64,000 nt of DNA from Fodinibius salipaludis (GTDB taxonomy: Bacteria > Bacteroidota > Rhodothermia > Balneolales > Balneolaceae). Below, piece after piece: positions 4,152 to 50,360 of the stretch. Position numbers and translations under genes: made by a program. The DNA lies in assembly GCF_002287075.1 (NCBI RefSeq), contig NZ_NSKE01000004.1, positions 186,001-250,000 of the forward strand. The letters are read 5' to 3'. Under the pieces are notes generated by a model, which searched no databases, was not told the origin of the DNA, and saw nothing but the letters and a program-made list of their open reading frames with translations. Position 1 is the stretch's first letter, and each line of letters opens with the position of its first letter.

Positions 4152-5287
4152 TGCTGTACGAACTCTTACATTGGTTAGAAGTTACTTATCAGCCCCCTGG
4201 CTTTGGTGCATTTGAATTTATTACAACCCGGGCTGCCATTGCTGCGGCCATGGCCCTGTTTATCAGTGTAATGATTGGTCGACGTATTATCGAATGGCTT
4301 GAAAAGATGCAACTGCGCGAAGTAATCCGCGAAGATATTGGACTGGATACACATCTTGGCAAGGCACACACCCCCAGTATGGGTGGACTAATTATCCTTC
4401 TGGCTATTCTTATTCCGGCCGCTTTTTGGATGAAAATGGATAGTATCTATACGTGGATGATTATCCTCGTTACACTTATCCTGGGCGTGGTCGGCTTTGC
4501 TGATGACTATATCAAAGTGGTTAAAAAGGATAAGTCGGGTCTAAGCGGAAGGCTTAAAGTAGCCGGACAGGTTTCTGTGGGCTTATTACTCGGACTTACG
4601 CTATACTTTTGGCCGGAGTTTCAAGACTTTAATACGCTTTCTACGGTGCCATTCCTAAAAAATGTAAACATCGACTACGCCATATTGGGCGAAGCACTCG
4701 GCTGGGTTATTTATATCCCGATGGTCGTTTTTGTAATTACAGCTGTAAGTAACGCTGTGAACTTAACGGACGGCCTTGATGGTCTTGCAGCCGGCACATC
4801 AGCTATAGCAGGACTTATCCTCGGCATTTTTGCCTACGTATCGGGACGAACCGACTTCTCTGACTTCCTTGATATCATCTATCTGCCGGGAGCCGGAGAG
4901 TTGACCATATTCGCCGCATCACTGGTGGGTGCTTGTATGGGATTCCTGTGGTACAATGCCCATCCGGCTTCTGTTTTTATGGGTGATACCGGATCTCTGG
5001 CCTTGGGCGGATCTTTTGGAGCCTTGGCTCTTATGCTGCACAAAGAACTTTTGCTGCCCATTATATGCGGAATCTTTTTTGTTGAAACCGTTTCAGTAAT
5101 TATTCAGACAACCTATTTCAAATATACAAAGCGGAAATATGGTGAAGGAAAACGGGTCTTTTTGATGACCCCAATCCACCATCACTTTGAGAAAAAGGGA
5201 CTACCTGAATCTAAAATTGTAATTCGCTTTTGGATTATTGCGGTGCTCCTTGGAATCCTAAGTCTCTTAACCCTTAAGCTACGATGA
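4151..5287 (+). CDS. mraY: Phospho-N-acetylmuramoyl-pentapeptide transferase
   Basis: Integral membrane enzyme that transfers phospho-MurNAc-pentapeptide from UDP to undecaprenyl phosphate, giving lipid I. About ten membrane segments are visible. Family signatures are all present: DDYIK at 118-122, NAVNLTDGLDGL from 201, the catalytic aspartate region MGDTGS at 277-282, and the PIHHHFE histidine motif at 341-347. Length (378) is close to that of E. coli MraY. The start codon overlaps the murE stop (TAATG) and the stop overlaps murD by four bases (ATGA), so the gene sits in a tightly coupled run. Confidence 0.97.
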   Translation: MLYELLHWLEVTYQPPGFGAFEFITTRAAIAAAMALFISVMIGRRIIEWLEKMQLREVIREDIGLDTHLGKAHTPSMGGLIILLAILIPAAFWMKMDSIYTWMIILVTLILGVVGFADDYIKVVKKDKSGLSGRLKVAGQVSVGLLLGLTLYFWPEFQDFNTLSTVPFLKNVNIDYAILGEALGWVIYIPMVVFVITAVSNAVNLTDGLDGLAAGTSAIAGLILGIFAYVSGRTDFSDFLDIIYLPGAGELTIFAASLVGACMGFLWYNAHPASVFMGDTGSLALGGSFGALALMLHKELLLPIICGIFFVETVSVIIQTTYFKYTKRKYGEGKRVFLMTPIHHHFEKKGLPESKIVIRFWIIAVLLGILSLLTLKLR

Positions 5288-6651
5288 GAGAAGTTGCTAA
5301 CAAACATATCGTCGTTGTGGGAGCCGCCCGAAGTGGGCTTGCTGTGGCATCGCTATTGAAGCGAAAAGGAGCTGATGTATTTGTGACTGATCATGGCGCT
5401 ATTGCCCATTCTGTAAAGAAGAAATTAACCACACTGGATATCGATTTTGAAGAAAATGGACATACAACTAAAGCAGAAGGGGGCGCATTTTTGGCCATCA
5501 GTCCCGGGGTACCCACAGAAGCACCTCTGGTACAAAAATATCTAAACAGTGGAAAAGAAGTGTATTCGGAGATTGAAATAGCCAGCTGGTTTAATAAAAG
5601 CCCCATTGTGGCAGTAACAGGCAGCAATGGTAAAACAACGGTAACAAACTGGCTGGATCATACTTGGAAAAAAGCCAGCCGTGATCATATAACCGGTGGT
5701 AATATTGGATACGCATTCTCTGACAAAGTTGATCAAACATCAGAAAACAGCGAAGCCTTGTTAGAAGTCAGCAGTTTTCAGCTGGATCACATAGATAGCT
5801 TCCACCCACATATAAGTGTGTTACTAAATATTACGGCTGATCACCTTGATCGATACAACCATGATTTTTCAAGCTATGCAAAATCGAAATTTCGAATTAT
5901 TGAAAACCAAACGGGTAACGACTGGTTCATTTACAATTATGATGATCCAACAATTACCGAGTATGTATATTCACTTAAAAAAAAAGAAGAGGGACCCCGG
6001 CTTCTACCCTTTTCAACCGACGAAGATCTTTCAGAGGCCAATGGAGCTTTTATTCGAAATCAAAACATCATTTTAAAAATCAACAAACAAGAAGAGGTAC
6101 TCATGCCAACTCGTGATGTTAATCTTTCTGGTAAGCATAATTTAAGCAATGGACTTGCTACGGCTCTTGCCGCTCGTGCTTCCGAAATTAAAAGTGATGC
6201 CATCCGTGAAAGTCTGCGCACTTTTGAAGGCGTGGAACACCGTCTCGAACTGGTGCGCACGGTTAACGGAGTAAAATACATCAACGACAGTAAGGCAACC
6301 AATATCAATGCAGTGTGGTATGCCCTCGACAGTTTTGATGTTCCTATGACCATCATCTTGGGCGGACGTGATAAGGGAAATGATTACTCCGAGTTAGTCA
6401 ATCAAATCCAGGAAAAAGTCCACACAATTATTGCGATAGGCGAAGCTCAGCCAATGATTGAAGAGCAACTAAAATCGATAGTTCCCAATTTTAAAACTGC
6501 TAAGGATATGAATAACGCCGTACGATCGGCCAAGGAGGTAGCCAAGCGGGGTGAAGTTGTTTTGCTAAGCCCGGCATGCTCCTCTTTTGATATGTACGAC
6601 AATTATGAACACCGAGGCAATGAATTCAAAAAAGCAGTAAATCGACTTTAA
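5284..6651 (+). CDS. murD: UDP-MurNAc-L-Ala:D-glutamate ligase
   Basis: Cytoplasmic Mur ligase that adds D-glutamate to UDP-MurNAc-L-alanine. An N-terminal Rossmann-type start (VVVGAARSGLA) is followed by the ATP-binding loop VTGSNGKTT at residues 111-119 and the conserved SSFQL and NDSKATN stretches of the central domain. Length (455) is normal. The start overlaps the mraY stop (ATGA). After its stop the close packing of the cluster is interrupted by a 73-base gap with an inverted repeat before ftsW. Confidence 0.96.
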   Translation: MREVANKHIVVVGAARSGLAVASLLKRKGADVFVTDHGAIAHSVKKKLTTLDIDFEENGHTTKAEGGAFLAISPGVPTEAPLVQKYLNSGKEVYSEIEIASWFNKSPIVAVTGSNGKTTVTNWLDHTWKKASRDHITGGNIGYAFSDKVDQTSENSEALLEVSSFQLDHIDSFHPHISVLLNITADHLDRYNHDFSSYAKSKFRIIENQTGNDWFIYNYDDPTITEYVYSLKKKEEGPRLLPFSTDEDLSEANGAFIRNQNIILKINKQEEVLMPTRDVNLSGKHNLSNGLATALAARASEIKSDAIRESLRTFEGVEHRLELVRTVNGVKYINDSKATNINAVWYALDSFDVPMTIILGGRDKGNDYSELVNQIQEKVHTIIAIGEAQPMIEEQLKSIVPNFKTAKDMNNAVRSAKEVAKRGEVVLLSPACSSFDMYDNYEHRGNEFKKAVNRL

Positions 6652-36453: not shown

Positions 36454-37104
36454 ATGGAAAAGAAGATACACAGTTACGAATCAGATGATATTACGGTAGA
36501 ATTTGATAGTAAGCGGTGCATCCATTCCGCGGAATGTGTCAAAAATTTGCCTTCGGTATTTAATCCGAATAACAAGCCCTGGATTACCCCCGGAGAGGCC
36601 TCTGCCGAAAAAATCAAAGAGGTTGTTCAACACTGTCCTACCGGAGCCCTACAGTATAAGAACGGTGAAGAAGAGCTTCCGGCACGGCAAAATACCATCA
36701 CTATTGTGCCCGACGGACCTCTGTATCTGCGGGGCGATATCGAGATTCAAAATGCGGAGGGAGAAACGCTACTCGAAGACACACGGGTTGCTGTTTGTCG
36801 CTGTGGCGCATCCGAAAACAAACCCCTTTGTGACGATACGCACGAAGACGTCGACTTTGAAGCACCGGCTTCATTCGAAAAAGCCAAGCTGCGTCCCACA
36901 AAAGACGGAGATCCATCCGAAAGTAAACTGATTCTAAAATTGATGGATGACGGACCGATTTTACTTGAGGGCACTTACCGTGTACACTCTATTGCAAACG
37001 AAGCAGTGAACAGCTCAAAAAATGTCGCTCTTTGCCGCTGCGGCCAATCGTCTGACAAACCGTTTTGCGACGGTACGCATAAAGATGTCGGCTTTGAGGG
37101 ATGA
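36454..37104 (+). CDS. Multi-cluster iron-sulfur protein: ferredoxin-like domain plus two CDGSH domains
   Basis: A 216-residue cytoplasmic protein. Residues about 8-66 resemble the divergent 4Fe-4S mono-cluster domain of YjdI (Fer4_19): KRCIHSAECVKNLPSVF and VVQHCPTGAL supply cysteines. Two CDGSH-type [2Fe-2S] sites follow: CRCGASENKPLCDDTH (about 111-126) and CRCGQSSDKPFCDGTH (about 191-206), each with the three-Cys, one-His ligand set. MitoNEET-type CDGSH proteins transfer clusters or sense redox or iron state. The exact role of this three-domain form is not known. It stands alone, with a terminator after it. Confidence 0.9.
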   Translation: MEKKIHSYESDDITVEFDSKRCIHSAECVKNLPSVFNPNNKPWITPGEASAEKIKEVVQHCPTGALQYKNGEEELPARQNTITIVPDGPLYLRGDIEIQNAEGETLLEDTRVAVCRCGASENKPLCDDTHEDVDFEAPASFEKAKLRPTKDGDPSESKLILKLMDDGPILLEGTYRVHSIANEAVNSSKNVALCRCGQSSDKPFCDGTHKDVGFEG

Positions 37105-38680: not shown

Positions 38681-39979
38681 TTATACGTTATCCAGGGCTA
38701 CTTTTATTGACTCATCAGCAGCTTCAATAGTTTTTCTAAGGTGATCTTCTGTAAGAGAATTAGCTAAGAAAAGAGCCTCGAACGGGGATGGAGGCAGGTA
38801 GATTCCATTTTCCAGCATCTGATGGAAATAGGCCTTAAAAAATGCCTGATCGGTTGTATTGGCTGTTTTGAAATCAATAACTTCTTCTTCCTCTGTGAAG
38901 AAAACACTCAACATTGAACCCACTTGGTTAAGCACAAAAGGCACTCCGTGTTCTTCCAAGACATCTTTCAGTCCCCTGGCCAGCTTAACAGTCTTTTCTT
39001 CCAATTCATCGTAATGCAGTGGATTTTCATATAACTCTGAAAGTAGCGCATAGCCCGCTGCCATCGCCAAGGGATTGCCCGAAAGGGTTCCAGCCTGATA
39101 AACATTACCCACCGGAGAAACAACATCCATAATTTCCTGTTTACCGCCAAAGGCCCCTACCGGCAATCCAGCCCCAATGATTTTTCCATAGGTTACAAGA
39201 TCTGCCGTAACACCGTAACGCTCTTGCGCTCCGCCCATTGCTACGCGAAAACCGGTCATCACTTCGTCAAAAATGAGAACTACATCGTGGGCATCACACA
39301 ACTCTCGAAGTCCGGACAAAAATCCTTTTTTCGGGGGAATACATCCCATATTCCCGGCAACAGGTTCCAGAATAATTGCGGCGACTTCTCCCTCATATTC
39401 ATTGAGCAGCTTCTTGACAGAATTCAAATCATTGAAATTAGCGGTCAACGTATCCTTAGCTGTTCCCTCTGTTACGCCGGGGCTACTCGGTTGACCTAAC
39501 GTCAGGGCACCACTACCGGCGTTAATCAGAAAAGAATCACCATGACCATGATAATTACCTTCAAATTTGATAACCTTATCCCGTCCGGTATACCCGCGAG
39601 CCACACGAATAGCACTCATGCACGCTTCTGTTCCGGAATTCACCATTCGAATTTTATCCACTCCCGGTACCATCTGTTTGACAAGCTCGGCCATCTTAAC
39701 TTCGATTTCAGTCGGTGCCCCAAAAGAGGTAGACTTAGCCGCGGTCTCTTTGACAGCTTCGATCACCGGCTCATAGGCGTGACCTAAAATCATCGGTCCC
39801 CACGACCCCACATAATCAATATATTCTTTACCGTCTACATCAGTAAGAATAGATCCCTTGGCTTTTTCCAAGAAAACGGGCGTACCGCCTACTGATTTAA
39901 ACGCCCGGGCGGGAGAATTTACACCACCTGGGATGAATTGCTGTGCTCGTTCAAATAATTTTTTACTCTTTTCTAACAT
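38681..39979 (-). CDS. hemL: Glutamate-1-semialdehyde 2,1-aminomutase
   Basis: PLP enzyme that converts glutamate-1-semialdehyde to 5-aminolevulinate, the second step of the C5 heme pathway. It opens [20 protein letters not shown] and the PLP-binding lysine is K266 in [28 protein letters not shown] with the cofactor-contacting aspartate is also present. Length (432) is standard. It lies downstream of hemB on the same strand, separated by about 130 bases that hold a 98-base inverted-repeat element, so co-transcription with hemB is not certain. Confidence 0.97.
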
Positions 39980-40005
39980 AATTCTGTCAACAAAATTTAA
40001 CTAAG

Positions 40006-40103
40006 ATGTCATCCTGAACTTGTCGTGTCCCGACTATTCGGGGTTTCAGAATCTGCAGTTCATCAAAAAAAACATAGATGCTGAAATAAATTCAGCATGA
40101 CAT
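40006..40103. repeat. 98-base MITE-like element between hemB and hemL
   Basis: Ends ATGTCATCCTGAA (left) and TTCAGCATGACAT (right) are 13-base terminal inverted repeats with one mismatch. Inside is a further hairpin CCCGA-CTAT-TCGGG. The element is nearly identical to the reverse complement of 44441-44534. It lies 10 bases after the hemB stop in the transcribed direction. Confidence 0.85.
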
Positions 40104-40113
40104 GAAACATTGT

Positions 40114-41109
40114 TTACATTTGATTCTTCAATATTTTTGATGCTGCCTTGGCGAAATACGTAGCAATCAGATCTGCACCGGCTCGCTTAAAGCCGACCAA
40201 TGCTTCCATCATCGCTTCTTCTTCGTTCAACCACCCTTTCTCAGCAGCAGCCTTTAACATAGCGTATTCTCCGGAAACATTATAGACCGAGACGGGCACC
40301 GAGACATTTTCTTTAACGGCTCTGATGACATCCATATAAGGCAACCCCGGCTTTACCATCACGATATCGGCCCCTTCCTGTTCGTCAAGCTTCGCTTCTT
40401 TGATTGCTTCCTGAACATTGGCGGGATCCATCTGGTACGTTTTCTTATCACCGAATCCAGGCGCCGAATCCAGCGCATCCCGAAAGGGCCCGTAGTAACT
40501 GGAGGCGTATTTTGCGCTGTACGCCATGATGCCGGTGTGCTCGTAACCTTCTTTATCCAACGCTTCACGCATGGCACCGATACGACCGTCCATCATATCC
40601 GACGGAGCCACCATATCAACACCGGCTTTGGCATGACTCACGGCCATCTCAGAGAGTATTTCCACGGATTCATCATTCAATATCTCACCGTCCTCTACGA
40701 TGCCGTCGTGACCATAGCTCGAATAGGGATCCATTGCGATGTCAGTCATCACCAGCATTTCGGGGAATTCTTCTTTAATAGCTCGAACTGCCCGCTGCAT
40801 CAATCCATCGGGATTAAGCGCTTCTGTACCTTTATTATCTTTGAGCTCATCAGGTACCTTCGCAAATACCAATACCGAACGAATCCCAACTTCTTTCAGC
40901 TCCCGGATTTCATCCATCAATAGATCCAACGTATAGCGATAATAGTCCGGCATGGATGGAATTTCGACCTTTTTATTTTCTCCATCCATCACAAAAACAG
41001 GAGCGATAAAATCAGCCGGTTTAAGATTATGTTCGGCCACCATATCGCGCATAGCTTCCGAAGTTCGCAATCGTCGTCCGCGTATGTATGGAAATTGTCC
41101 GTGTGTCAT
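40114..41109 (-). CDS. hemB: Porphobilinogen synthase (5-aminolevulinate dehydratase)
   Basis: Condenses two 5-aminolevulinate molecules to porphobilinogen. RGRRLRTSEAMRDMV at the N-terminus, SDMMDGRIGAMRE, and the Schiff-base lysine in MAYSAKYASSYYGPFRDA followed by VKPGLPYMDVI are family signatures. The open frame extends to an ATG at 41148, but its first ten codons are a dispersed repeat (GGGCGTATCGCAATACGCCC read in reverse); the ATG at 41109 (MTHGQFPYIRGRRLR) gives the usual N-terminus and was chosen. It follows hemF closely on the minus strand. Confidence 0.95.
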   Translation of the reverse strand: MTHGQFPYIRGRRLRTSEAMRDMVAEHNLKPADFIAPVFVMDGENKKVEIPSMPDYYRYTLDLLMDEIRELKEVGIRSVLVFAKVPDELKDNKGTEALNPDGLMQRAVRAIKEEFPEMLVMTDIAMDPYSSYGHDGIVEDGEILNDESVEILSEMAVSHAKAGVDMVAPSDMMDGRIGAMREALDKEGYEHTGIMAYSAKYASSYYGPFRDALDSAPGFGDKKTYQMDPANVQEAIKEAKLDEQEGADIVMVKPGLPYMDVIRAVKENVSVPVSVYNVSGEYAMLKAAAEKGWLNEEEAMMEALVGFKRAGADLIATYFAKAASKILKNQM

Positions 41110-41126
41110 ATCAATTAAAACTGTTG

Positions 41127-41146
41127 GGGCGTATCGCAATACGCCC
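41127..41146. repeat. GGCGTATCGCAATACGCC hairpin repeat at the hemB 5' end
   Basis: GGGCGTAT (41127-41134), loop CGCA, ATACGCCC (41139-41146): perfect 8-base stem. The same 18-base core recurs between carA and carB at 56066-56083. It lies in the 45-base hemF-hemB gap when hemB starts at 41109. Confidence 0.85.
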
Positions 41147-41154
41147 ATGCAAAT

Positions 41155-42507
41155 TTAGTTTCGATTTAAAATTCCTTCTTCTTCACCGTATTCAATCCAA
41201 TCAATAGGATTTTCAAGTCGATCTAAAAGATATGCCTCTCGGCTGTCTTCTTTGATTTCAAAATCATAATCCCACCGCACGCGTGGCGGTAGACTCATCA
41301 ATATCGACTCCGTCCGCCCGTTTGTTTTTAAGCCGAATAATGTACCGCGATCATGAATCAAATTAAACTCGACATAACGTCCGCGACGAATCTCCTGAAA
41401 GTATCGCTGTTGATCGGAGTATTTTTCGTCTTCTCGCCGTTTGATTATCGGCACATAGCTATCCAAAAAAGCATCCCCCACATCTGTTGTAAAGTTGTAC
41501 CAGTCCTCAGCAGTCCGTTCTTCATTAGAACGCAAGTAATCAAAAAACAGCCCCCCAATTCCGCGCCCCTCCGACCGGTGATCATTATAGAAGTATTCGT
41601 CACACTCCTTTTTAAACTTGGGATATAAATCTTTGCCATGATTATCACAAGCAGCTTTCAACACTTGGTGAAAATGCACCGCATCTTCATCCCACAAATA
41701 ATAGGGCGTTAAATCCGCGCCGCCGCCAAACCACTGATCACGCACTTCGTTCATCTCAGCATCATCGTAGAGCTCAAAATAGCGGTAGTTAGCATGTACG
41801 GTCGGAACCATTGGACTCTTGGGATGGATAACGAGCGAAAGTCCACCGGCCCAGAACCACCCCTCTTCTACTTCAAATCGCTTACGTATCAGCTCGGGAA
41901 GTTCTCCGTGCACGCTGGATATATTCACTCCCCCCTTTTCAAAAACGTCGCCTTTTTCGATCACCCGAGTATGACCGCCACCTCCGCCATCGCGTTCCCA
42001 ATCGTCATGGCGAAATCGTGCCCTTCCGTCAATTGCTTCCAGAGTATCACAAATCTCATCCTGTAACTTACGAATGTAGGCTTCAAATCGATTTTTGATC
42101 GAGGTCTCGTCAAAGTCCCCCTTCGAAGGGGGATGATCTTCTACCCATCCTTTAATAGATCGTTCTACATTTTTAAGATCATTCATGACTTCATCATCCG
42201 TAAATCGCAATATGGTAAAGCCTTTCTCTTCAAGCTCTTTTTGTCTATCTAAGTCCTCATACCACTGGCGTTCATCCTCATGTGAATACCCATCAACTTC
42301 AATGATCAGCTGTAGCTCTTTACACATAAAATCAGCGATATAATTCAATACCGGCCGCTGACGAAGGAAAGTATATCCTTTCATTTTACCCGCTCGCAAC
42401 ACTTCAGACCAAAGCCTTATTTCAGCTTTCGTTGAGTCTTTTCGGAGCTTACGAGCAAGCTCTTTCAAATCTTTGTTATAACCGTAATTATCGTATTCAG
42501 TTGACAT
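41155..42507 (-). CDS. hemF: DUF559 nuclease-like domain fused to coproporphyrinogen III oxidase (HemF)
   Basis: Residues about 138-450 are an intact oxygen-dependent HemF, which decarboxylates coproporphyrinogen III to protoporphyrinogen IX: KNRFEAYIRKLQDEICD, GGGGGHTRVIEKGDVFEKGG, MVPTVHANYRYFE, WFGGGADLTPYY and the C-terminal LPPRVRWDYDF are all conserved. Residues about 8-125 are instead a DUF559 (Vsr/PD-(D/E)XK-like) domain: RLWSEVLRAGKMKGYTFLRQ, RPVLNYIADFMCKELQLIIE, VDGYSH and ILRFTDDEV. The join (EDHPPSKGDFDE) is encoded by the palindrome at 42116-42133. No ATG, GTG or TTG in frame lies near the start of the HemF part, so HemF is probably made only as the fusion. Normal HemF has about 300 residues; this frame has 450. 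Confidence 0.92.
   Translation of the reverse strand: MSTEYDNYGYNKDLKELARKLRKDSTKAEIRLWSEVLRAGKMKGYTFLRQRPVLNYIADFMCKELQLIIEVDGYSHEDERQWYEDLDRQKELEEKGFTILRFTDDEVMNDLKNVERSIKGWVEDHPPSKGDFDETSIKNRFEAYIRKLQDEICDTLEAIDGRARFRHDDWERDGGGGGHTRVIEKGDVFEKGGVNISSVHGELPELIRKRFEVEEGWFWAGGLSLVIHPKSPMVPTVHANYRYFELYDDAEMNEVRDQWFGGGADLTPYYLWDEDAVHFHQVLKAACDNHGKDLYPKFKKECDEYFYNDHRSEGRGIGGLFFDYLRSNEERTAEDWYNFTTDVGDAFLDSYVPIIKRREDEKYSDQQRYFQEIRRGRYVEFNLIHDRGTLFGLKTNGRTESILMSLPPRVRWDYDFEIKEDSREAYLLDRLENPIDWIEYGEEEGILNRN
42116..42133. repeat. CCCCCTT/AAGGGGG palindrome at the DUF559-HemF junction
   Basis: TCCCCCTT-CG-AAGGGGGA is a perfect 18-base palindrome inside the fused gene. Read away from the DUF559 part it is TCATCCCCCTTCGAAGGGG followed by GACTT, the same outward-facing sequence as the copy at 42529-42561 on the other side of the DUF559 segment. 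Confidence 0.9.
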
Positions 42508-42525
42508 ATTTTGATAGTTACCTTA

Positions 42526-42561
42526 GGTCATCCCCCTTAATCCCCCTTCAAAGGGGGACTT
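42526..42561. repeat. CCCCCTT/AAGGGGG repeat upstream of the DUF559-hemF start
   Basis: GGTCATCCCCCTTAA precedes TCCCCCTT-CA-AAGGGGGA (42541-42558) and CTT. Compared with the copy at 42116 it has an extra CCCCCTTAAT unit. It lies between hemE and the fused hemF and, with the 42116 copy, brackets the DUF559 coding segment in inverted orientation. Confidence 0.85.
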
Positions 42562-42580
42562 AAATTTACTTCGAGCCGCG

Positions 42581-43630
42581 TTAATCTGTAGCTGTGTACT
42601 CCTTTACAGTATCAACGAAAACACGGGCATTATCTACGGGAATGTTCGGCAAAATTCCATGGCCCAGATTCGCAATATATTTCTGTGTCCCGAATCGGTC
42701 GATCATTCGCTTGGTCTGGCGGCGGATTTCATCTTGCGGCATCATCAGTTTTGAGGGATCAAAGTTGCCCTGCAAAACGACATCTCCGCGCGTAGCATCC
42801 CGTCCATATTCAGGAGTGATTGTCCAATCAAGTCCCAGTGCCTGCGCATTGCTCTTAAAACTGAGTCGCTCGAGCGCATACCAGCTACCTTTGGCAAACA
42901 GAATCACCGGCACCTCGTCGATGGCATCACAAATCTCCATAAGGTACGGCATCGCCCACTCGTTAAAATCTTCGGGGCTTAACAAACCTGACCAAGAATC
43001 AAAAAGCTGTACTACCTGCGCACCGGCCTTTATCTGCGCTTTCAGGTAATCAATCGTTGCCTTGGTTAGCTCTTTCATTACATGCTTGGCCGCATCAGGA
43101 TGCTGATACATAAAGGCTTTGGCCTTGGCAAAATTCTTGGAGCCTTCGCCCTGTACCATATAGCAGAAGAGCGTCCATGGTGCCCCGGCAAAACCGATCA
43201 GCGGCACGCGTCCGTTGAGCTCCTTACGCGTTAGTGTTATTGCCTCCATAACATGATTGAGCTTCCCGGGAATATCCTCAGCCAAAATCGAAAAGGCATC
43301 ATCCACACTGCTAATGGGGTTTTCCATCACCGGACCTTTGCCTTTAACCAGATCCACATCAATACCAAGTGCTTGCGGAATCGTTAGGATATCCGAAAAG
43401 ATAATAGCGGCGTCCGGTTCGAGTTCATCAATAGGCTGAATGGTAATTTCACAGGCCAGCTCAGGCGTTTCTACACGTTCAAAAAAAGTGTATTTCTTGC
43501 GTAGCTTCATATACTGCGGCAAATAACGGCCGGCCTGACGCATCATCCATACGGGCGGACGTTCAATTTCTTCGCCGCGTAGTGCTCGTAGCAGTAAATC
43601 ATTTTTTAGTTCCGGAAAATTGTTACTCAT
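42581..43630 (-). CDS. hemE: Uroporphyrinogen decarboxylase
   Basis: Removes four carboxyl groups from uroporphyrinogen III to form coproporphyrinogen III. RPPVWMMRQAGRYLPQYM is the N-terminal signature, FSDILTIPQALGIDV the second conserved block, and LIGFAGAPWTLFCYMVQG and NLGHGILPNIPVDNA are also diagnostic. Length (349) is normal. On the minus strand it follows hemD after a 49-base gap that includes a degenerate CCCCCTT repeat, and precedes the DUF559-hemF fusion. Confidence 0.97.
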   Translation of the reverse strand: MSNNFPELKNDLLLRALRGEEIERPPVWMMRQAGRYLPQYMKLRKKYTFFERVETPELACEITIQPIDELEPDAAIIFSDILTIPQALGIDVDLVKGKGPVMENPISSVDDAFSILAEDIPGKLNHVMEAITLTRKELNGRVPLIGFAGAPWTLFCYMVQGEGSKNFAKAKAFMYQHPDAAKHVMKELTKATIDYLKAQIKAGAQVVQLFDSWSGLLSPEDFNEWAMPYLMEICDAIDEVPVILFAKGSWYALERLSFKSNAQALGLDWTITPEYGRDATRGDVVLQGNFDPSKLMMPQDEIRRQTKRMIDRFGTQKYIANLGHGILPNIPVDNARVFVDTVKEYTATD

Positions 43631-43668
43631 AAAATATTTAGTAATTTAAAAAGTGTTGAATCCTTTGA

Positions 43669-43702
43669 GGTCATTCCCCTTAATCCCTCTCTGAAGGGGA
43701 CT
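43669..43702. repeat. Degenerate CCCCCTT repeat at the 3' end of hemD
   Basis: GGTCATTCCCCTTAATCCCT then CTCTGAAGGGGACTG is a mutated form of the copy at 42526. The hemD stop codon (TAA on the minus strand, 43680-43682) and its last seven or so codons (SPSERD) lie within it. Confidence 0.75.
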
Positions 43703-44423
43703 GTTCAACCTTATTAAAAATATAATCGGCAGTGGTACGCAAAAGTACTTCGGTATCGGGCTGCTTGGCAATTTCTACATGCTGATCTGTACGTTCTTTA
43801 AGTGCACCGGCTGTTGTAGGACCGATGGCAAAAAGCGGTGGTAATTCTTGGTCAAATCCGGTACCGCGAGCAAAACCTTCCACCGCACTTGGACTGTAAA
43901 ATAGGATGCCGCTCACCGGTTTATTTGGCATTTCCACCGGATTAATAATCGTTTCATACACTTCAAGCTCAATCACTTCAATACCATCATCTTGCAATCG
44001 ATCACTCATCTCATCCCGACTCAAATTTCCATGGAAATAGATGACCGAATTAATCTTTCCTTCTTCAATAATTAGCTCGGCCAAGTGCTTTCCATCCTGT
44101 TTTATTGGAATCTTAGCATCAAGTCCTAAATCCTGCAAGGCATCACGCGTTTTCGCTCCCACTGCAAATAGCTGCACTTCAGGTCGAACGCGTAAACCGG
44201 CATCCATCAATTCTTCCAGTGCTTTTACACCATTGGCACTGGTAAAAACCCAATCCGATTTAAGATGCTCATTAATCACTTTAAGCACACTATCCCAGTA
44301 ATCGGGAAAGTTGAACTGCAGCGCCGGTTCAATAATAGGCTCCAGTCCAAGAATACGAGCATATTCAAACTGCTGTGCAGATAAAGGTCGCGTTACTAAA
44401 ATATTTCGTTTGTCTTGTCTCAT
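43680..44423 (-). CDS. hemD: Uroporphyrinogen-III synthase
   Basis: Cyclises hydroxymethylbilane with inversion of ring D to uroporphyrinogen III. The protein begins ILVTRPLSAQQFEYA, has WVFTSANGVKALEEL, VGAKTRDALQDLG and the second-domain GILFYSPSAVEGFARG and AIGPTTAGALKE, the low-conservation pattern of HemD. Length (247) is normal. It lies between hemC and hemE in pathway order. Its last residues and stop codon are formed by a dispersed repeat. A much more divergent relative is at 23787-24527. Confidence 0.92.
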   Translation of the reverse strand: MRQDKRNILVTRPLSAQQFEYARILGLEPIIEPALQFNFPDYWDSVLKVINEHLKSDWVFTSANGVKALEELMDAGLRVRPEVQLFAVGAKTRDALQDLGLDAKIPIKQDGKHLAELIIEEGKINSVIYFHGNLSRDEMSDRLQDDGIEVIELEVYETIINPVEMPNKPVSGILFYSPSAVEGFARGTGFDQELPPLFAIGPTTAGALKERTDQHVEIAKQPDTEVLLRTTADYIFNKVEQSPSERD

Positions 44424-44440
44424 TGATAACCAATTATTAC

Positions 44441-44534
44441 GTCATGATAAATTTATTCCAGCATCTATGTTTTTTGATGAACTGCAGTTCCTGAAACCCC
44501 GAATAGTCGGGACACGGCAAGTTCAGGATGACAT
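44441..44534. repeat. 94-base MITE-like element between hemC and hemD
   Basis: Reverse-complement near-copy of the element at 40006-40103: on the minus strand it reads ATGTCATCCTGAACTTG, then CGTGTCCCGACTATTCGGGG, CTGCAGTTCATC and CATAGATGCTG. Differences are a few substitutions and a 2-base change in an A-run. It starts 5 bases after the hemC stop. Confidence 0.85.
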
Positions 44535-44539
44535 TGAAA

Positions 44540-45460
44540 CTACTCCGATTTCATCTCTTCAATTACCTTAATTGCCCCTTCGGCCAAGAGGGCTTGTGCG
44601 GCAGAATGCCCAAGATCACCGGCCTCACCTACCGAGACACGCTCTTCGTAATCGTATTGCTCGCGTCCGTCAAGCATAAGTGCCACAGCTTTAAAATGCA
44701 CTTCTTCATCCTCAATAAAAGCATAAGCACCAACAGGTGCACTGCAACCGGCTTCCATATCATGCAAAAAATCGCGTTCAATCGTCGTGCAAAGCGCCGT
44801 TTCATCGTGATTCAGCTGCGAAACGATCTCCTCCATCTCACTGTCATCTTCGCGAATCATCACTGCCATTGCTCCCTGCGCTGCTGCCGAAACCATCCAG
44901 TCCAAGTATTCACTTATATGATGACCGAGATCGATACGTTCCAACCCGGCTGCGGCAAAAATAGCCCCGTCCCAGTTGTTCTTCTCTACTTTTTCGAGGC
45001 GCGTATTTACATTTCCCCGGATATTTACAATCTCGTGATGCGGATAACGATGCAACCACTGTGCACGCCGCCGGTTGCTGCTTGTGGCAATAGTCGCTTT
45101 ATAATCAGGATCATCCAAAAAACCGGTTCCATCGGGCGCAACCAGCGAATCGCGCGCATCGGCACGCTCCATAATAGCCGCCACTTTGAGTGGAAGCGGA
45201 TTTTCGGTAGGCAGATCCTTGAATGAATGAACTGCGATATCAATTTCATCATTAAGCTGGGCATTATCGAGCGCCTTTGTAAATACGCCCTTACCGCCCA
45301 TCTCAGTTAGCGGTGTTGTCAGGTCAAGGTCCCCCTCCGACTTAACAAAAATAAGCTCGGTTTCATGGCCGAGCTTTTCTAACTTCTTAGCAACCTGTTT
45401 GGCCTGCCACGTAGCTAACTGACTATCACGGGTGCCAATACGAATTGTTTTCTTACTCAT
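44540..45460 (-). CDS. hemC: Hydroxymethylbilane synthase (porphobilinogen deaminase)
   Basis: Polymerises four porphobilinogens into hydroxymethylbilane. The start IRIGTRDSQLATWQA, the GVFTKALDNAQL and DIAVHSFKDLPTE blocks, ATSSNRRRAQWLH and the dipyrromethane cofactor cysteine C239 in EAGCSAPVGAY identify it. The open frame extends to 45493, but the ATG at 45460 (MSKKTIRIGTRDS) gives the family N-terminus and overlaps the hemA stop by eight bases, which suits coupling. Length (306 from this start) is normal. Confidence 0.96.
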   Translation of the reverse strand: MSKKTIRIGTRDSQLATWQAKQVAKKLEKLGHETELIFVKSEGDLDLTTPLTEMGGKGVFTKALDNAQLNDEIDIAVHSFKDLPTENPLPLKVAAIMERADARDSLVAPDGTGFLDDPDYKATIATSSNRRRAQWLHRYPHHEIVNIRGNVNTRLEKVEKNNWDGAIFAAAGLERIDLGHHISEYLDWMVSAAAQGAMAVMIREDDSEMEEIVSQLNHDETALCTTIERDFLHDMEAGCSAPVGAYAFIEDEEVHFKAVALMLDGREQYDYEERVSVGEAGDLGHSAAQALLAEGAIKVIEEMKSE

Positions 45461-46715
45461 CTCCGGGCTTCGTTTCGAGTTTAAACATATCATTAACCAC
45501 CTTGGTCACCTGCTCAGATTCGTGATGATCACGCAGATGCTCAATAGAATAGGCGGCAATTTTATTTACGATGCGACGAGTTAGGTTTTCTACTTTTTCT
45601 TTGTCGGTCTCTGAAATTTTATTTCTAAAAAACTCAAACTCATCTTCGCGGATATTATCAAATTTGTTCGTCAGTGCCTTAATCGTAGGCACCACTTTCT
45701 GCTTGCTAAGCCAGTTTTTATAATCGGTTAGCTCATCATCAATAATCTTCTTGACCAACGGGATATTTTCTTCGCGCTTGCGATAGGCCTCATCAGTTAC
45801 ATCCGTCAGAAAATCCATATTTGCCAGATCCACAAATTCCATTTCACCTATCTGGGGATCAATATTACGAGGAACCGACAGATCCACCATTACCTTAAAC
45901 TTCGGATCGAGCAGTGAAGGCTTCATATCATCCAGTGTAATAACCGGCTCTTTGGCTCCCGTTGCCACAATAACTAAATCGGCTTCGTCTATCTCTTCCG
46001 ACAACCGTTCCATACCGGCTACCTGTAAGTCATATTTATCCGCCACAAACTCGGCCCGTTCCCGTGTTCGGTTGATAAGCGTGAGCTTCCTGGCACCGAG
46101 ATTAATCAAATTCTTGCACGTTACCTTGCCGATCTTACCGGTTCCTACCAGCAGAATATTTTTGTCTTTCAAATTATCGAAGGTCTTTACCGCAAATTTT
46201 ACCGCAGCATAGGCCGTTGTGGCTGCCCCTTCGCCGAGTGACGTTTCATTTCGTGACCGTTTGTGTGCCCGAAAAACGTGCTGCATCAACCGGTGAAGCT
46301 CACCGTCCACGGCATCCATATCGCTGGCCAGCTCATACCCTTCTTTCACTTGCTTTACAACTTGCAGGTCACCCAATATTTGAGAGTCAAGTCCCACAGT
46401 AACTTGAAAAAGATGCTCAACGGCCTGCTGACCTTCTTTTTCAAATCCATAATTGTGGAATTCATCCAGTGATGCATTGGAGTATGTTACCAGAAGGCGA
46501 ATCAGCTCTTGGGGAGTAACATCCTGTGCAAAAATCTCTGTTCGATTACATGTCGAAACAACAAACAGGCTATTAATTCCTTCACGTTTGGCACCTTCAA
46601 TAAGCTCTTTCTTCTGAGCTTTTTTCAGGCTAAACCGCTCCCGCACATCAATGGTTGCCTCCCAGTGGTTGACACCAACAGCACAAAAATCAGTTATTTG
46701 AGGTTGCTCTGACAT
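45453..46715 (-). CDS. hemA: Glutamyl-tRNA reductase
   Basis: First committed enzyme of the C5 pathway: reduces glutamyl-tRNA to glutamate-1-semialdehyde with NADPH. The nucleophile is C56 in VVSTCNRTEIF. The NADPH domain shows LVGTGKIGKVTCKNL and the GAKEPVITLDDM region. The protein ends in the usual helical dimerisation domain. Length (420) is normal. It starts four bases after the hemH stop and overlaps hemC, so hemH-hemA-hemC form a tight operon. It implies heme from glutamate, not from glycine. Confidence 0.97.
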   Translation of the reverse strand: MSEQPQITDFCAVGVNHWEATIDVRERFSLKKAQKKELIEGAKREGINSLFVVSTCNRTEIFAQDVTPQELIRLLVTYSNASLDEFHNYGFEKEGQQAVEHLFQVTVGLDSQILGDLQVVKQVKEGYELASDMDAVDGELHRLMQHVFRAHKRSRNETSLGEGAATTAYAAVKFAVKTFDNLKDKNILLVGTGKIGKVTCKNLINLGARKLTLINRTRERAEFVADKYDLQVAGMERLSEEIDEADLVIVATGAKEPVITLDDMKPSLLDPKFKVMVDLSVPRNIDPQIGEMEFVDLANMDFLTDVTDEAYRKREENIPLVKKIIDDELTDYKNWLSKQKVVPTIKALTNKFDNIREDEFEFFRNKISETDKEKVENLTRRIVNKIAAYSIEHLRDHHESEQVTKVVNDMFKLETKPGDE

Positions 46716-46719
46716 CTAT

Positions 46720-47838
46720 TTAAGCAGAAACTTTTTTAGATTCTTTTTCTTCTTGCGCAACATCGACTTCGTGATCCAATTTGTCTAACACCTGATCGGC
46801 TAATGCTTCAATATATCTTGGATGGTCGTTAATACCTTCCATCACTTTCAGGTTTTCAAATTCATACCCATCCTCTTCCAAATCCTCAACCAGTTCAACG
46901 CCCAGCTCGAATAACGTTTCCACATGGTCGGTTACAAAAGCAATGGGAATCATGAGGAAATTCTTTATTCCATACTCAATATGACGCTCAACCAGCTCTG
47001 CGGTGTTAGGCTGTGTCCACTTTTGCGGGCCCACTTTTGACTGATACCCCAACCAATAATCATGATCGTAGCCGCGCATTTCCATAATAGCTTCCATCGT
47101 TTGGTTGATTTCTGTGGTATAAGGGTCACCGCTTCGTACCTCGAGCTTGGGTGTACCGTGTGCACTAAAGATGAAATGCGTTTTATTGCGCGTTTCTTCA
47201 TCCATCTCGGCCAGTGCTTCATCAATGCGATCATTCATAGCCGAGAGATATTTTTCATCGAGGTGATAATTTTTAACGTGAAATTCTTTCCACGGGGTAT
47301 CATGACCAAATTTCTCATCGCGCTTGGTCTCCCAATCACGATAACTACTCCCGGTAGTCGTCCACGAGAACTGTGGATAGAGCGGCACCATCACCGCATG
47401 AGTGATGTCATCTTCAACCATATCATCCATTGTCGTCTCGGCAAACGGCAGCCAATACCGCATGCAGGTATATACTTTCACAGTATGATCGGGCATTACC
47501 TTTCCAAGATGCTTCTCAAGACCGCGCCGTTGCTTTTCCGTCAGACTGTTAATGGGCGAACAACAGGTTGAGGTGATACTCTTTTTCCGATTGATGCAAT
47601 GCTTGTTACCCATACAGCCCTTGGGGCAGCCGTTGATCTCTTCATAATCTTCCTGCACGCTTGGCGCACGGAATTTTGAAATAATTCTTGCAAACAGATC
47701 CTGGATTTTACCGCCGCCCATTTTGATAATATCCTCATCCTTGAACAGGTTATACAAAAATGGTCGAACGGCATAGTCGGCAGTGGGGCCGCCGAGATTC
47801 ATCAATACTACACCAATTCGTTTCTCTTTATCTGCCAT
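46720..47838 (-). CDS. hemH: Ferrochelatase with a five-cysteine insertion
   Basis: Inserts ferrous iron into protoporphyrin IX, the last step to protoheme. GVVLMNLGGP at the N-terminus, the catalytic H227 in IFSAHGTP and E307 in FVTDHVETLFEL are conserved. Where other ferrochelatases have YEEIGGGSP, this one has YEEING, about 20 extra residues with C71, C75, C81, C92 and C93 (CPKGCMGNKHC, then TCC), then SPINSLTEKQ. The cysteine spacing suggests a metal or Fe-S site, which is inference; known ferrochelatase [2Fe-2S] ligands lie mainly in the C-terminal region. It is the first gene of the hemH-hemA-hemC run. A candidate iron operator lies about 140 bases upstream. Confidence 0.95.
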   Translation of the reverse strand: MADKEKRIGVVLMNLGGPTADYAVRPFLYNLFKDEDIIKMGGGKIQDLFARIISKFRAPSVQEDYEEINGCPKGCMGNKHCINRKKSITSTCCSPINSLTEKQRRGLEKHLGKVMPDHTVKVYTCMRYWLPFAETTMDDMVEDDITHAVMVPLYPQFSWTTTGSSYRDWETKRDEKFGHDTPWKEFHVKNYHLDEKYLSAMNDRIDEALAEMDEETRNKTHFIFSAHGTPKLEVRSGDPYTTEINQTMEAIMEMRGYDHDYWLGYQSKVGPQKWTQPNTAELVERHIEYGIKNFLMIPIAFVTDHVETLFELGVELVEDLEEDGYEFENLKVMEGINDHPRYIEALADQVLDKLDHEVDVAQEEKESKKVSA

Positions 47839-48176: not shown

Positions 48177-49583
48177 CTAAGCCTTTCGCAACTCAAACCA
48201 AAAACGAGTACCTTCACCTACTTCGCTTTCTACCTCAATTTTTGAACCATGAGCATTGAGAATACTCTTAACCACAGCCAATCCTAATCCCGTACCTCCC
48301 TTATCGCGTGATCGTGCCTTATCTGTCCGGTAAAAGCGATCAAACAACCGATTCAGATGCTCCTCAGAAATACCGATCCCACGGTCTTCCACCATGATCG
48401 TAACTTTGTTTTCAGAATCTTGATACGATAGGTTAACGGTTCCCTCGTTCGTATATTTGATAGCATTTGATACCAAATTATCAAGCACTTGTTCAATTTT
48501 ACCGGGATCGCCAACGACCCTGCAGCTATGCTGATCAACATTTAGTTTTACATTCTTTTTTGCCGCTTTTTCCTCGTACCATGCCTGCATATGTTCGGTA
48601 ATATCAGAGAGATCAAACTCCTGCAGTTCAACAAAGTATTCATCGGAATCGTATCGTTGAAGGATCTTTAAATCTTTAAAGAGATGTGAAATCCGTTCGG
48701 TCTGTTTCTTTGCCGTAGTAATATATTTATCCTTCTTCTCTTCTGATAACTCATCCAGCTCCAACATATCAAGCGCGCCGGAAATTGTGTGTAGCGGATT
48801 GCGAATTTCGTGAGTGATATCTGCAAAAAACTGACGCTGTTTCTCGGCGAATTGTTTAATCTGTTCGGTGTCAGCCCGCAGTTTAGAGGCCATTTGATTA
48901 AGTGATGTAGCAAGCGTGCCGAACTCATCACTACGACTAATATCGATCTCCCGATCCACATCTCCGTCGGCGATATCCTGTGCAGCATCCTTAATCTGAG
49001 TAATGGGCTTAGTCACATAGCGGGCAATCCATATACTTACGACTACCACTAATCCGATTGAAATAAACATGCCATAATAAATAATCCAACGGATAGTTTT
49101 GATGGGTTCATAGATCTGATCCTTAAACTGCGAAGCCTGTAAAAATAAAGTGCCGGCCGTAGAATCAGGAAGCATAATATAGCTTTTCAGAACTTCTGAG
49201 TCAGAATCGCGGGGAAGCAGTGGCAGGTTTTCACGTGCCTTCAAACTTTCTATGATGCCTGCATCTAACTTTTGTATCGATGCGATGGTCGTATCGCTGC
49301 TCTGATAATGGTTAATTAATTTTCCGGTAGAATCGTAAACTGCCAGCTGATATCCCGAGGTACGCGCAGTCTCTAACAACCGATCATCAAAGTTTTCATC
49401 ATCTGACAAGTTTGCCGCCGTTACAGCCAACCACCGGGTATCGCGCTCCATTTCTGCACGTCCTTCTTCAAGCAGATAATCCCTGATAAAAACAATGGAA
49501 TAGCTGCTGATAGAAGTGATCCCAAAAATAAGCAGCAGAATAAATGTCCAAGCAAGCTTTGATCGAATCTTCATATAACTCAA
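48177..49583 (-). CDS. Sensor histidine kinase (HAMP, HisKA, HATPase)
   Basis: Membrane sensor kinase of 468 residues. Membrane segments at about 11-33 and 166-187 enclose a periplasmic sensing region of about 130 residues. A HAMP domain (about 188-240) is followed by the H-box FADITHEIRNPLH with phospho-acceptor H258. The ATPase domain has the N-box (NLVSNAIKYTN), G1 (EDRGIGI), F-box (DRFYR) and G2 (GGTGLGL). It is complete. The response regulator gene lies 75 bases upstream on the same strand, so the two form a cognate pair. The signal is not evident from the sequence. Confidence 0.95.
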   Translation of the reverse strand: MSYMKIRSKLAWTFILLLIFGITSISSYSIVFIRDYLLEEGRAEMERDTRWLAVTAANLSDDENFDDRLLETARTSGYQLAVYDSTGKLINHYQSSDTTIASIQKLDAGIIESLKARENLPLLPRDSDSEVLKSYIMLPDSTAGTLFLQASQFKDQIYEPIKTIRWIIYYGMFISIGLVVVVSIWIARYVTKPITQIKDAAQDIADGDVDREIDISRSDEFGTLATSLNQMASKLRADTEQIKQFAEKQRQFFADITHEIRNPLHTISGALDMLELDELSEEKKDKYITTAKKQTERISHLFKDLKILQRYDSDEYFVELQEFDLSDITEHMQAWYEEKAAKKNVKLNVDQHSCRVVGDPGKIEQVLDNLVSNAIKYTNEGTVNLSYQDSENKVTIMVEDRGIGISEEHLNRLFDRFYRTDKARSRDKGGTGLGLAVVKSILNAHGSKIEVESEVGEGTRFWFELRKA

Positions 49584-49658
49584 ATAACGCTAATTGAGCT
49601 GATAATCACTGATTCTATATTCATTATGATCTGTTTCAGCTTTAGAATCTATTTTCTG

Positions 49659-50360
49659 TTATACCTTTACAACTTCTCGGTTAAGCCCATACCCAATACC
49701 GCGGTAAGTTTTAATAACTTCACCGGCATCTCCCATCTTTAGGCGTAGATTTTTTACATGAACATCTACCGTGCGATCAAATACGTATCGGTCATCTTCG
49801 GTGATATGTTCTAAAATCTCTTGCCGGGTATACACGCGTTTGGGATTTTGATAAAAGAGCTTGATCAGCGTGTACTCTGTTGAGGTTAGATCAATTTTCT
49901 CATCATCCACATACAGTTCTTTAGCATCGGTATCCAGATAAGTATCGCCGTATTGCAGCCAGTTGGCTTTCTGGGGATTTTGGCGGCGAAGCAGCGACTC
50001 CACATGTGCCTTTACCAACGGCAGGCTGGCCGGTTTGGGGATGTAATCATCTGCCCCAAGCTCCAACCCCTCGATCTCATCCTCTTCTTCATCTTTGGCT
50101 GTTAAAAATATTACGGGAATATCGTTTAACACGGGATGGCTACGAATGTGCTTACAAATCTCCTTACCATCAACATTGGGAACCATAATATCAAGAATGG
50201 CCAAATGAATTTCTCCGGCATGTTGCTCAATAAGCTCCAGCGCTCGATTCCCTTCATGGGCTACAAGCACGTCGTAATCATTCATCTCCAGGAAATTAGC
50301 CAGCATCTCTGCCGGTTCCTCTTCATCTTCAACTAATAATATGCTATGCTTTGGTCTCAC
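49659..50360 (-). CDS. OmpR/PhoB family response regulator
   Basis: A 233-residue two-domain regulator. The receiver has E11-D12, the phospho-acceptor D57 in AILDIMVPNVDG and the T87/K89 switch region (FLTAKDE). The C-terminal winged helix (about 135-230) has LTSTEYTLIKLF, RVYTRQEILEHI and VDVHVKNLRLKMGD, then IKTYRGIGYGL, the OmpR/PhoB DNA-binding pattern. It is the first gene of a two-gene unit with the kinase downstream. Target genes cannot be deduced. Confidence 0.95.
   Translation of the reverse strand: MRPKHSILLVEDEEEPAEMLANFLEMNDYDVLVAHEGNRALELIEQHAGEIHLAILDIMVPNVDGKEICKHIRSHPVLNDIPVIFLTAKDEEEDEIEGLELGADDYIPKPASLPLVKAHVESLLRRQNPQKANWLQYGDTYLDTDAKELYVDDEKIDLTSTEYTLIKLFYQNPKRVYTRQEILEHITEDDRYVFDRTVDVHVKNLRLKMGDAGEVIKTYRGIGYGLNREVVKV

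Follow-up and report, generated by a model that had tools for sequence, protein, structure and literature searches.

A conserved five-cysteine loop beside the porphyrin mouth of Balneolales ferrochelatase, a candidate third placement for a metal site

What does a ferrochelatase gain from a short, cysteine-rich loop inserted near residue 70, and does this loop correspond to any of the cysteine motifs already known from the enzyme family? The question is raised by a gene of Fodinibius salipaludis (order Balneolales) lying within the window analysed here, the whole 64,000-nucleotide stretch of contig NZ_NSKE01000004.1 from position 186,001 to 250,000. We combined profile searches, alignments of relatives, a structural model, phylogeny and operon context to place the loop.

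The ferrochelatase and its inserted loop

The hemH gene (46720-47838, minus strand; 372 aa) was identified from its open reading frame and by Pfam, NCBIfam and Foldseek. Its product is a full-length member of the class II chelatase family (PF00762, E=7.8e-91, over the curated cut-off) and scores 275 bits on the hemH equivalog TIGR00109, whose cut-off is 125. Both profile matches are split in two, the main, second stretch starting from residue 93, just past the insertion, and HemH residues 71-92 have no counterpart in either profile. The inserted loop, delimited by alignments and the AlphaFold model, runs from C71 to C93 (47560-47628, minus strand), reads CPKGCMGNKHCINRKKSITSTCC and has the pattern C-x3-C-x5-C-x10-CC. 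A sequence-only reading of this DNA had reported, in the interval 47545-47631 (G70 to S98), five cysteines on about 20 extra residues between YEEING and SPINSLTEKQ. The cysteines (C71, C75, C81, C92 and C93) are exactly as it had them, and the insertion, which lies between YEEI and SPI, counts 22 residues in the alignment, because relatives without it read EEYKLIGG-KSPINEWT. The catalytic residues are intact, as had also been claimed: H227 (47158-47160, minus strand) and E307 (46918-46920, minus strand) align with human H263 and E343 in structure 2qd3 and are invariant among the aligned relatives.

Ferrochelatases were gathered from relatives and from named genomes and then aligned. The five cysteines are invariant in 54/54 aligned sequences, and in a larger alignment they and their spacing are invariant in all 81 distinct proteins, a set that covers five families of Balneolales (Fodinibius and Rhodohalobacter being among its genera) plus one deeper lineage (L188) and reaches down to about 50% identity. 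All five codons (minus strand) vary synonymously across these 81 sequences: C71 (47626-47628) is TGC in 51 and TGT in 30, C75 (47614-47616) TGT in 48 and TGC in 33, C81 (47596-47598) TGC in 46 and TGT in 35, and both codons occur at each position of the vicinal pair C92-C93 (47560-47565). With 23-58 cases of each codon at every cysteine, the amino acid has stayed the same while its codon changed many times. A chance run of cysteines was rejected on account of this invariance and of the confinement of the motif to one order. G74, G77, S90 and the SPIN following the loop are likewise invariant (81/81) and N83 is kept in 80/81, a pattern as expected for a folded loop that would carry ligands. C125, the sole other recurrent cysteine of HemH, is kept in 32/54. 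Alignment with relatives had been proposed as the check on the earlier reading, and there the cysteines are strictly conserved rather than varying freely.

The AlphaFold2 model, built from 61 sequences as an apo, metal-free structure (mean pLDDT 88.4, pTM 0.87), was matched best in Foldseek by the human and yeast enzymes (TM about 0.83, 32% identity), and the Bacillus enzyme was also matched. The insertion occupies residues 69-94, between helices 43-68 and 95-114, and is modelled at moderate confidence (pLDDT block means 72-80). In human FECH, G129-S130-P131 form the loop that joins helix 3 to helix 4. The human enzyme binds propionate 7 of the porphyrin through R115 and propionate 6 through Y123 and S130, the last of which has also been proposed to help mouth closure (PMC9133952). 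The equivalents of S130, Y123 and R115 are S94 (47557-47559, minus strand; aligned to 2qd3), Y65 and R57, all invariant among the aligned relatives, and the CC pair of the loop ends directly before S94. Lying between helices 3 and 4 and ending at this invariant serine, the loop is thus tethered directly to the porphyrin mouth, which bears out the earlier placement near the porphyrin-entry side.

Downstream of hemH on the same strand follow hemA, hemC, hemD, hemE, hemF, hemB and hemL (38681-46715), in a gene order shared by relatives; hemF was called from its domains and hemB was tested, while the remaining names were assigned by eye from the sequences. Coproheme decarboxylase (PF06778) is absent from the genome in a search whose controls worked and hemF is present in the operon, so the substrate of HemH should be protoporphyrin. 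The genome therefore follows the protoporphyrin route and the enzyme is of the protoporphyrin type (PpfC); a HemJ-like match fell below the cut-off, and protoporphyrinogen oxidase was not firmly identified in the genome.

Several neighbouring features were also recorded. The hemF product (41155-42507, minus strand) begins with a DUF559 endonuclease-like domain (PF04480, E=8e-30, residues 13-119) that precedes the coproporphyrinogen oxidase. This fusion is found in 4/12 genomes of the genus, the rest having unfused HemF, and stand-alone DUF559 genes occur elsewhere in several of the genomes. Just upstream of hemH lie a sensor kinase and an OmpR-type response regulator (48177-50360, minus strand), which keep this position in relatives, Rhodohalobacter among them (L145, L147, L131, L187), and possibly regulate the hem operon. 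A 216-aa ORF (36454-37104, plus strand) appears by eye to have a ferredoxin-like N-terminus and two CDGSH-like iron-sulfur motifs (CRCGASENKPLCDDTH and CRCGQSSDKPFCDGTH).

Distribution and origin of the loop

The loop is carried by a group of salt-loving bacteria. Its holders known by name are Fodinibius halophilus, F. sediminis, F. salsisoli and F. roseus, and Rhodohalobacter halophilus and R. sulfatireducens, with which the window HemH groups in the order Balneolales. L188, a Bacteroidetes metagenome-assembled genome outside the main group (49% identity), spaces its cysteines identically. Scanned over the home phylum, a degenerate DNA pattern of the motif matched 27/395 genomes once each, all of them Balneolales, and the reversed pattern used as a control gave 0 matches; other phyla were reached by the relative search alone, which favours close sequences. 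With 81 distinct sequences from five families and L188, the loop is no peculiarity that arose locally or recently in a single genome.

Other ligand placements were found in the same phylum. A cysteine-bearing insertion after the catalytic histidine is present in 18/20 further loci outside the window class, for example HCKIDGSCCNTPSPAHDFC. Other genera of the window's own family, Balneolaceae, have such a Bacteroidia-type ferrochelatase (27% identical) instead. In all three operons read (L212, L214, L215) the Bacteroidia-type hemH sits in a divergent hem operon whose hemA has 38-39% identity, compared with 48-87% within the window's order, which suggests replacement of the whole operon, not a swap of hemH alone. 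One of these operons, L214, has an extra 436-aa ORF between hemH and hemA (4863-6173).

Some Balneolaceae genomes have no ferrochelatase. All 11 tested (G016, G034, G230, G020, G172, G023, G118, G214, G025, G026 and G031; 90-99% complete) also lack the ALA dehydratase HemB, and thus appear to have lost heme synthesis. This suggests repeated loss within the family; genus g17 contains both heme makers and non-makers. Among the Balneolaceae heme makers, every full-length ferrochelatase read has a cysteine motif of one kind or the other.

The three motif regions were removed before a ferrochelatase tree was built. On it, sequences of the window type, of the C-terminal type and of the post-His type each form one strongly supported group, with support of 100/100 for both the window-type and the post-His clades, and the enzymes with insertions do not form a single clade. 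Just three changes on the tree account for the four states (three placements and none). The outgroup closest to the window type has no insertion, with weak support (87/37). The tree favours a separate origin of the window-type loop, the root and the long post-His branch being uncertain.

What the loop may bind

The loop is most likely a metal or Fe-S site, as the sequence-only reading had suggested; whether in sensing iron or oxygen or in receiving iron, the roles named there, such a site may act only putatively. We propose, with a probability of about 0.6, that the HemH of Balneolales, as a protoporphyrin ferrochelatase, binds metal in the loop, in the likeliest case as a [2Fe-2S] cluster with four of the five cysteines as ligands, and that this site tunes the porphyrin mouth. 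The pattern described for ferrochelatase [2Fe-2S] motifs is CX(1,11)CX(1,11)C with a CC grouping (PMC8529089), and the loop agrees with that of the internal insertions in both pattern and size (22 residues, for a range of 22-34). The human-type ligand set, three C-terminal cysteines plus an equivalent of C196, is excluded: the position of the fourth human ligand, C196, is W159 in the window HemH, and the alignment has no conserved C-terminal cysteines, so the loop would be the only cluster site. The number of cysteines speaks against this reading, as the loop has five and a [2Fe-2S] cluster needs four.

Because the CC pair directly precedes the mouth serine (human S130), loading or loss of a cluster held by four of the loop cysteines would order or disorder the mouth, and could tune enzyme activity to the iron, redox or NO state. 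Characterised bacterial enzymes remain active after cluster removal, and their clusters are robust (PMC8529089). A structural or tuning role is therefore likelier than a catalytic one; by the same observation, not even the known clusters have an established regulatory role.

Another metal in the loop, be it a structural zinc, a mononuclear iron that is donated to the active site, or a [4Fe-4S] or [3Fe-4S] cluster, is conceivable but unlikely. The five invariant cysteines with their invariant glycines suit several kinds of metal site, the first two gaps (x3 and x5) are unlike those of a typical plant-type ferredoxin, and the loop adjoins the mouth; the ferrochelatase precedents with such cysteine motifs, however, are [2Fe-2S] (PMC8529089). 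A Pfam search with the loop alone returned no known zinc or Fe-S domain, the piece being too short for the search to be informative.

We consider it improbable that the loop is metal-free and serves as a thiol/disulfide redox switch, or as a structural disulfide pair that gives the mouth loop its order. Cytosolic switches of this kind exist, and with a vicinal CC and an odd fifth cysteine disulfides could exchange, but the invariance of five cysteines and their spacing across an order exceeds what is usual for a switch, and the cysteine loops or tails of other ferrochelatases belong to Fe-S proteins (PMC8529089). A heme-regulatory Cys-Pro motif at C71-P72, for feedback by the product, can be given hardly any weight: the C-P is present in 71/81 sequences, but the proline is replaced by threonine in 9 and alanine in 1 with the cysteine always kept, and the other four cysteines would be left unexplained.

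Comparison with known [2Fe-2S] ferrochelatases

Weerth et al. 2021 surveyed 482 ferrochelatases and found the cluster ligands in an internal insertion or at the C-terminus; 43/46 Bacteroidetes sequences had the internal insertion, Rhodothermus and Salinibacter had the C-terminal form, and 18 sequences with the motif elsewhere were put aside as non-motif (PMC8529089). Balneolota may or may not be among those 18. A literature search pairing ferrochelatase with Balneol- words found no paper, and the loop would be a third ligand placement in ferrochelatase, with no earlier report in the literature searched.

The loop resembles the insertion of the Myxococcus xanthus/Bacteroidetes type, which is likewise cysteine-rich, about 22 residues long and equipped with a CC pair (PMC8529089). 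The Bacteroidia insertion, however, follows the catalytic histidine, where nothing is inserted in the window HemH, whose own insertion lies near residue 70; for M. xanthus, the site is deduced from the Bacteroidia sequences, near-universal carriers that group with it. The order of cysteines also differs (C-x3-C-x5-C-x10-CC in the window HemH, compared with, for example, C-x5-CC-x9-C in the Bacteroidia type), and the two enzymes share 27% identity and fall in separate clades. The different position and clade exclude the known Bacteroidetes insertion as the identity of the loop. Post-His loops of Balneolaceae (L055-L076) themselves hold five cysteines (C-x2-C-x2-CC-x9-C), against four in some other Bacteroidota, a parallel to the five in the loop of the window HemH.

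Enzymes of Rhodothermota (Salinibacter and Rhodothermus) have C-terminal tails such as RPCCQVQNRDIRCHQC, which are absent in the window type. The Salinibacter-type tail reads CC-x9-C-x2-C and the post-His loop CC-x9-C; the loop of the window HemH reads C-x10-CC. In favour of a [2Fe-2S] cluster, both known placements in relatives thus likewise pair a CC with a cysteine about 9 residues off, and as [2Fe-2S] sites they have been confirmed experimentally in other organisms. Human FECH, the closest fold to the window HemH (TM 0.83), is nevertheless of the C-terminal ligand type. The closest core outside the insertion clade belongs to insertion-free ferrochelatases (Ignavibacteria-like and other lineages of the phylum, about 40-48% identity), which share the YxxIGG...SPI framework and run from IGG straight to SPI with no cysteines. 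The placement of the cysteines hence departs from that of known [2Fe-2S] ferrochelatases, as the sequence-only reading had stated, with neither a post-His insertion nor C-terminal cysteines.

The loop is best read as a third, separately evolved site that probably holds a [2Fe-2S] cluster. Ferrochelatase clusters were discovered in 1994, and what they are for has been an open question ever since (PMC8529089); a third placement, which apparently arose separately and is attached directly to the mouth serine, offers an independent natural experiment on it. The loop is short and self-contained, so it is cleanly removable for testing, and cultured hosts exist in Fodinibius and Rhodohalobacter. If a cluster is present, its repeated invention, after the catalytic histidine, at the C-terminus and before the mouth serine, would speak for one shared function close to the active site.
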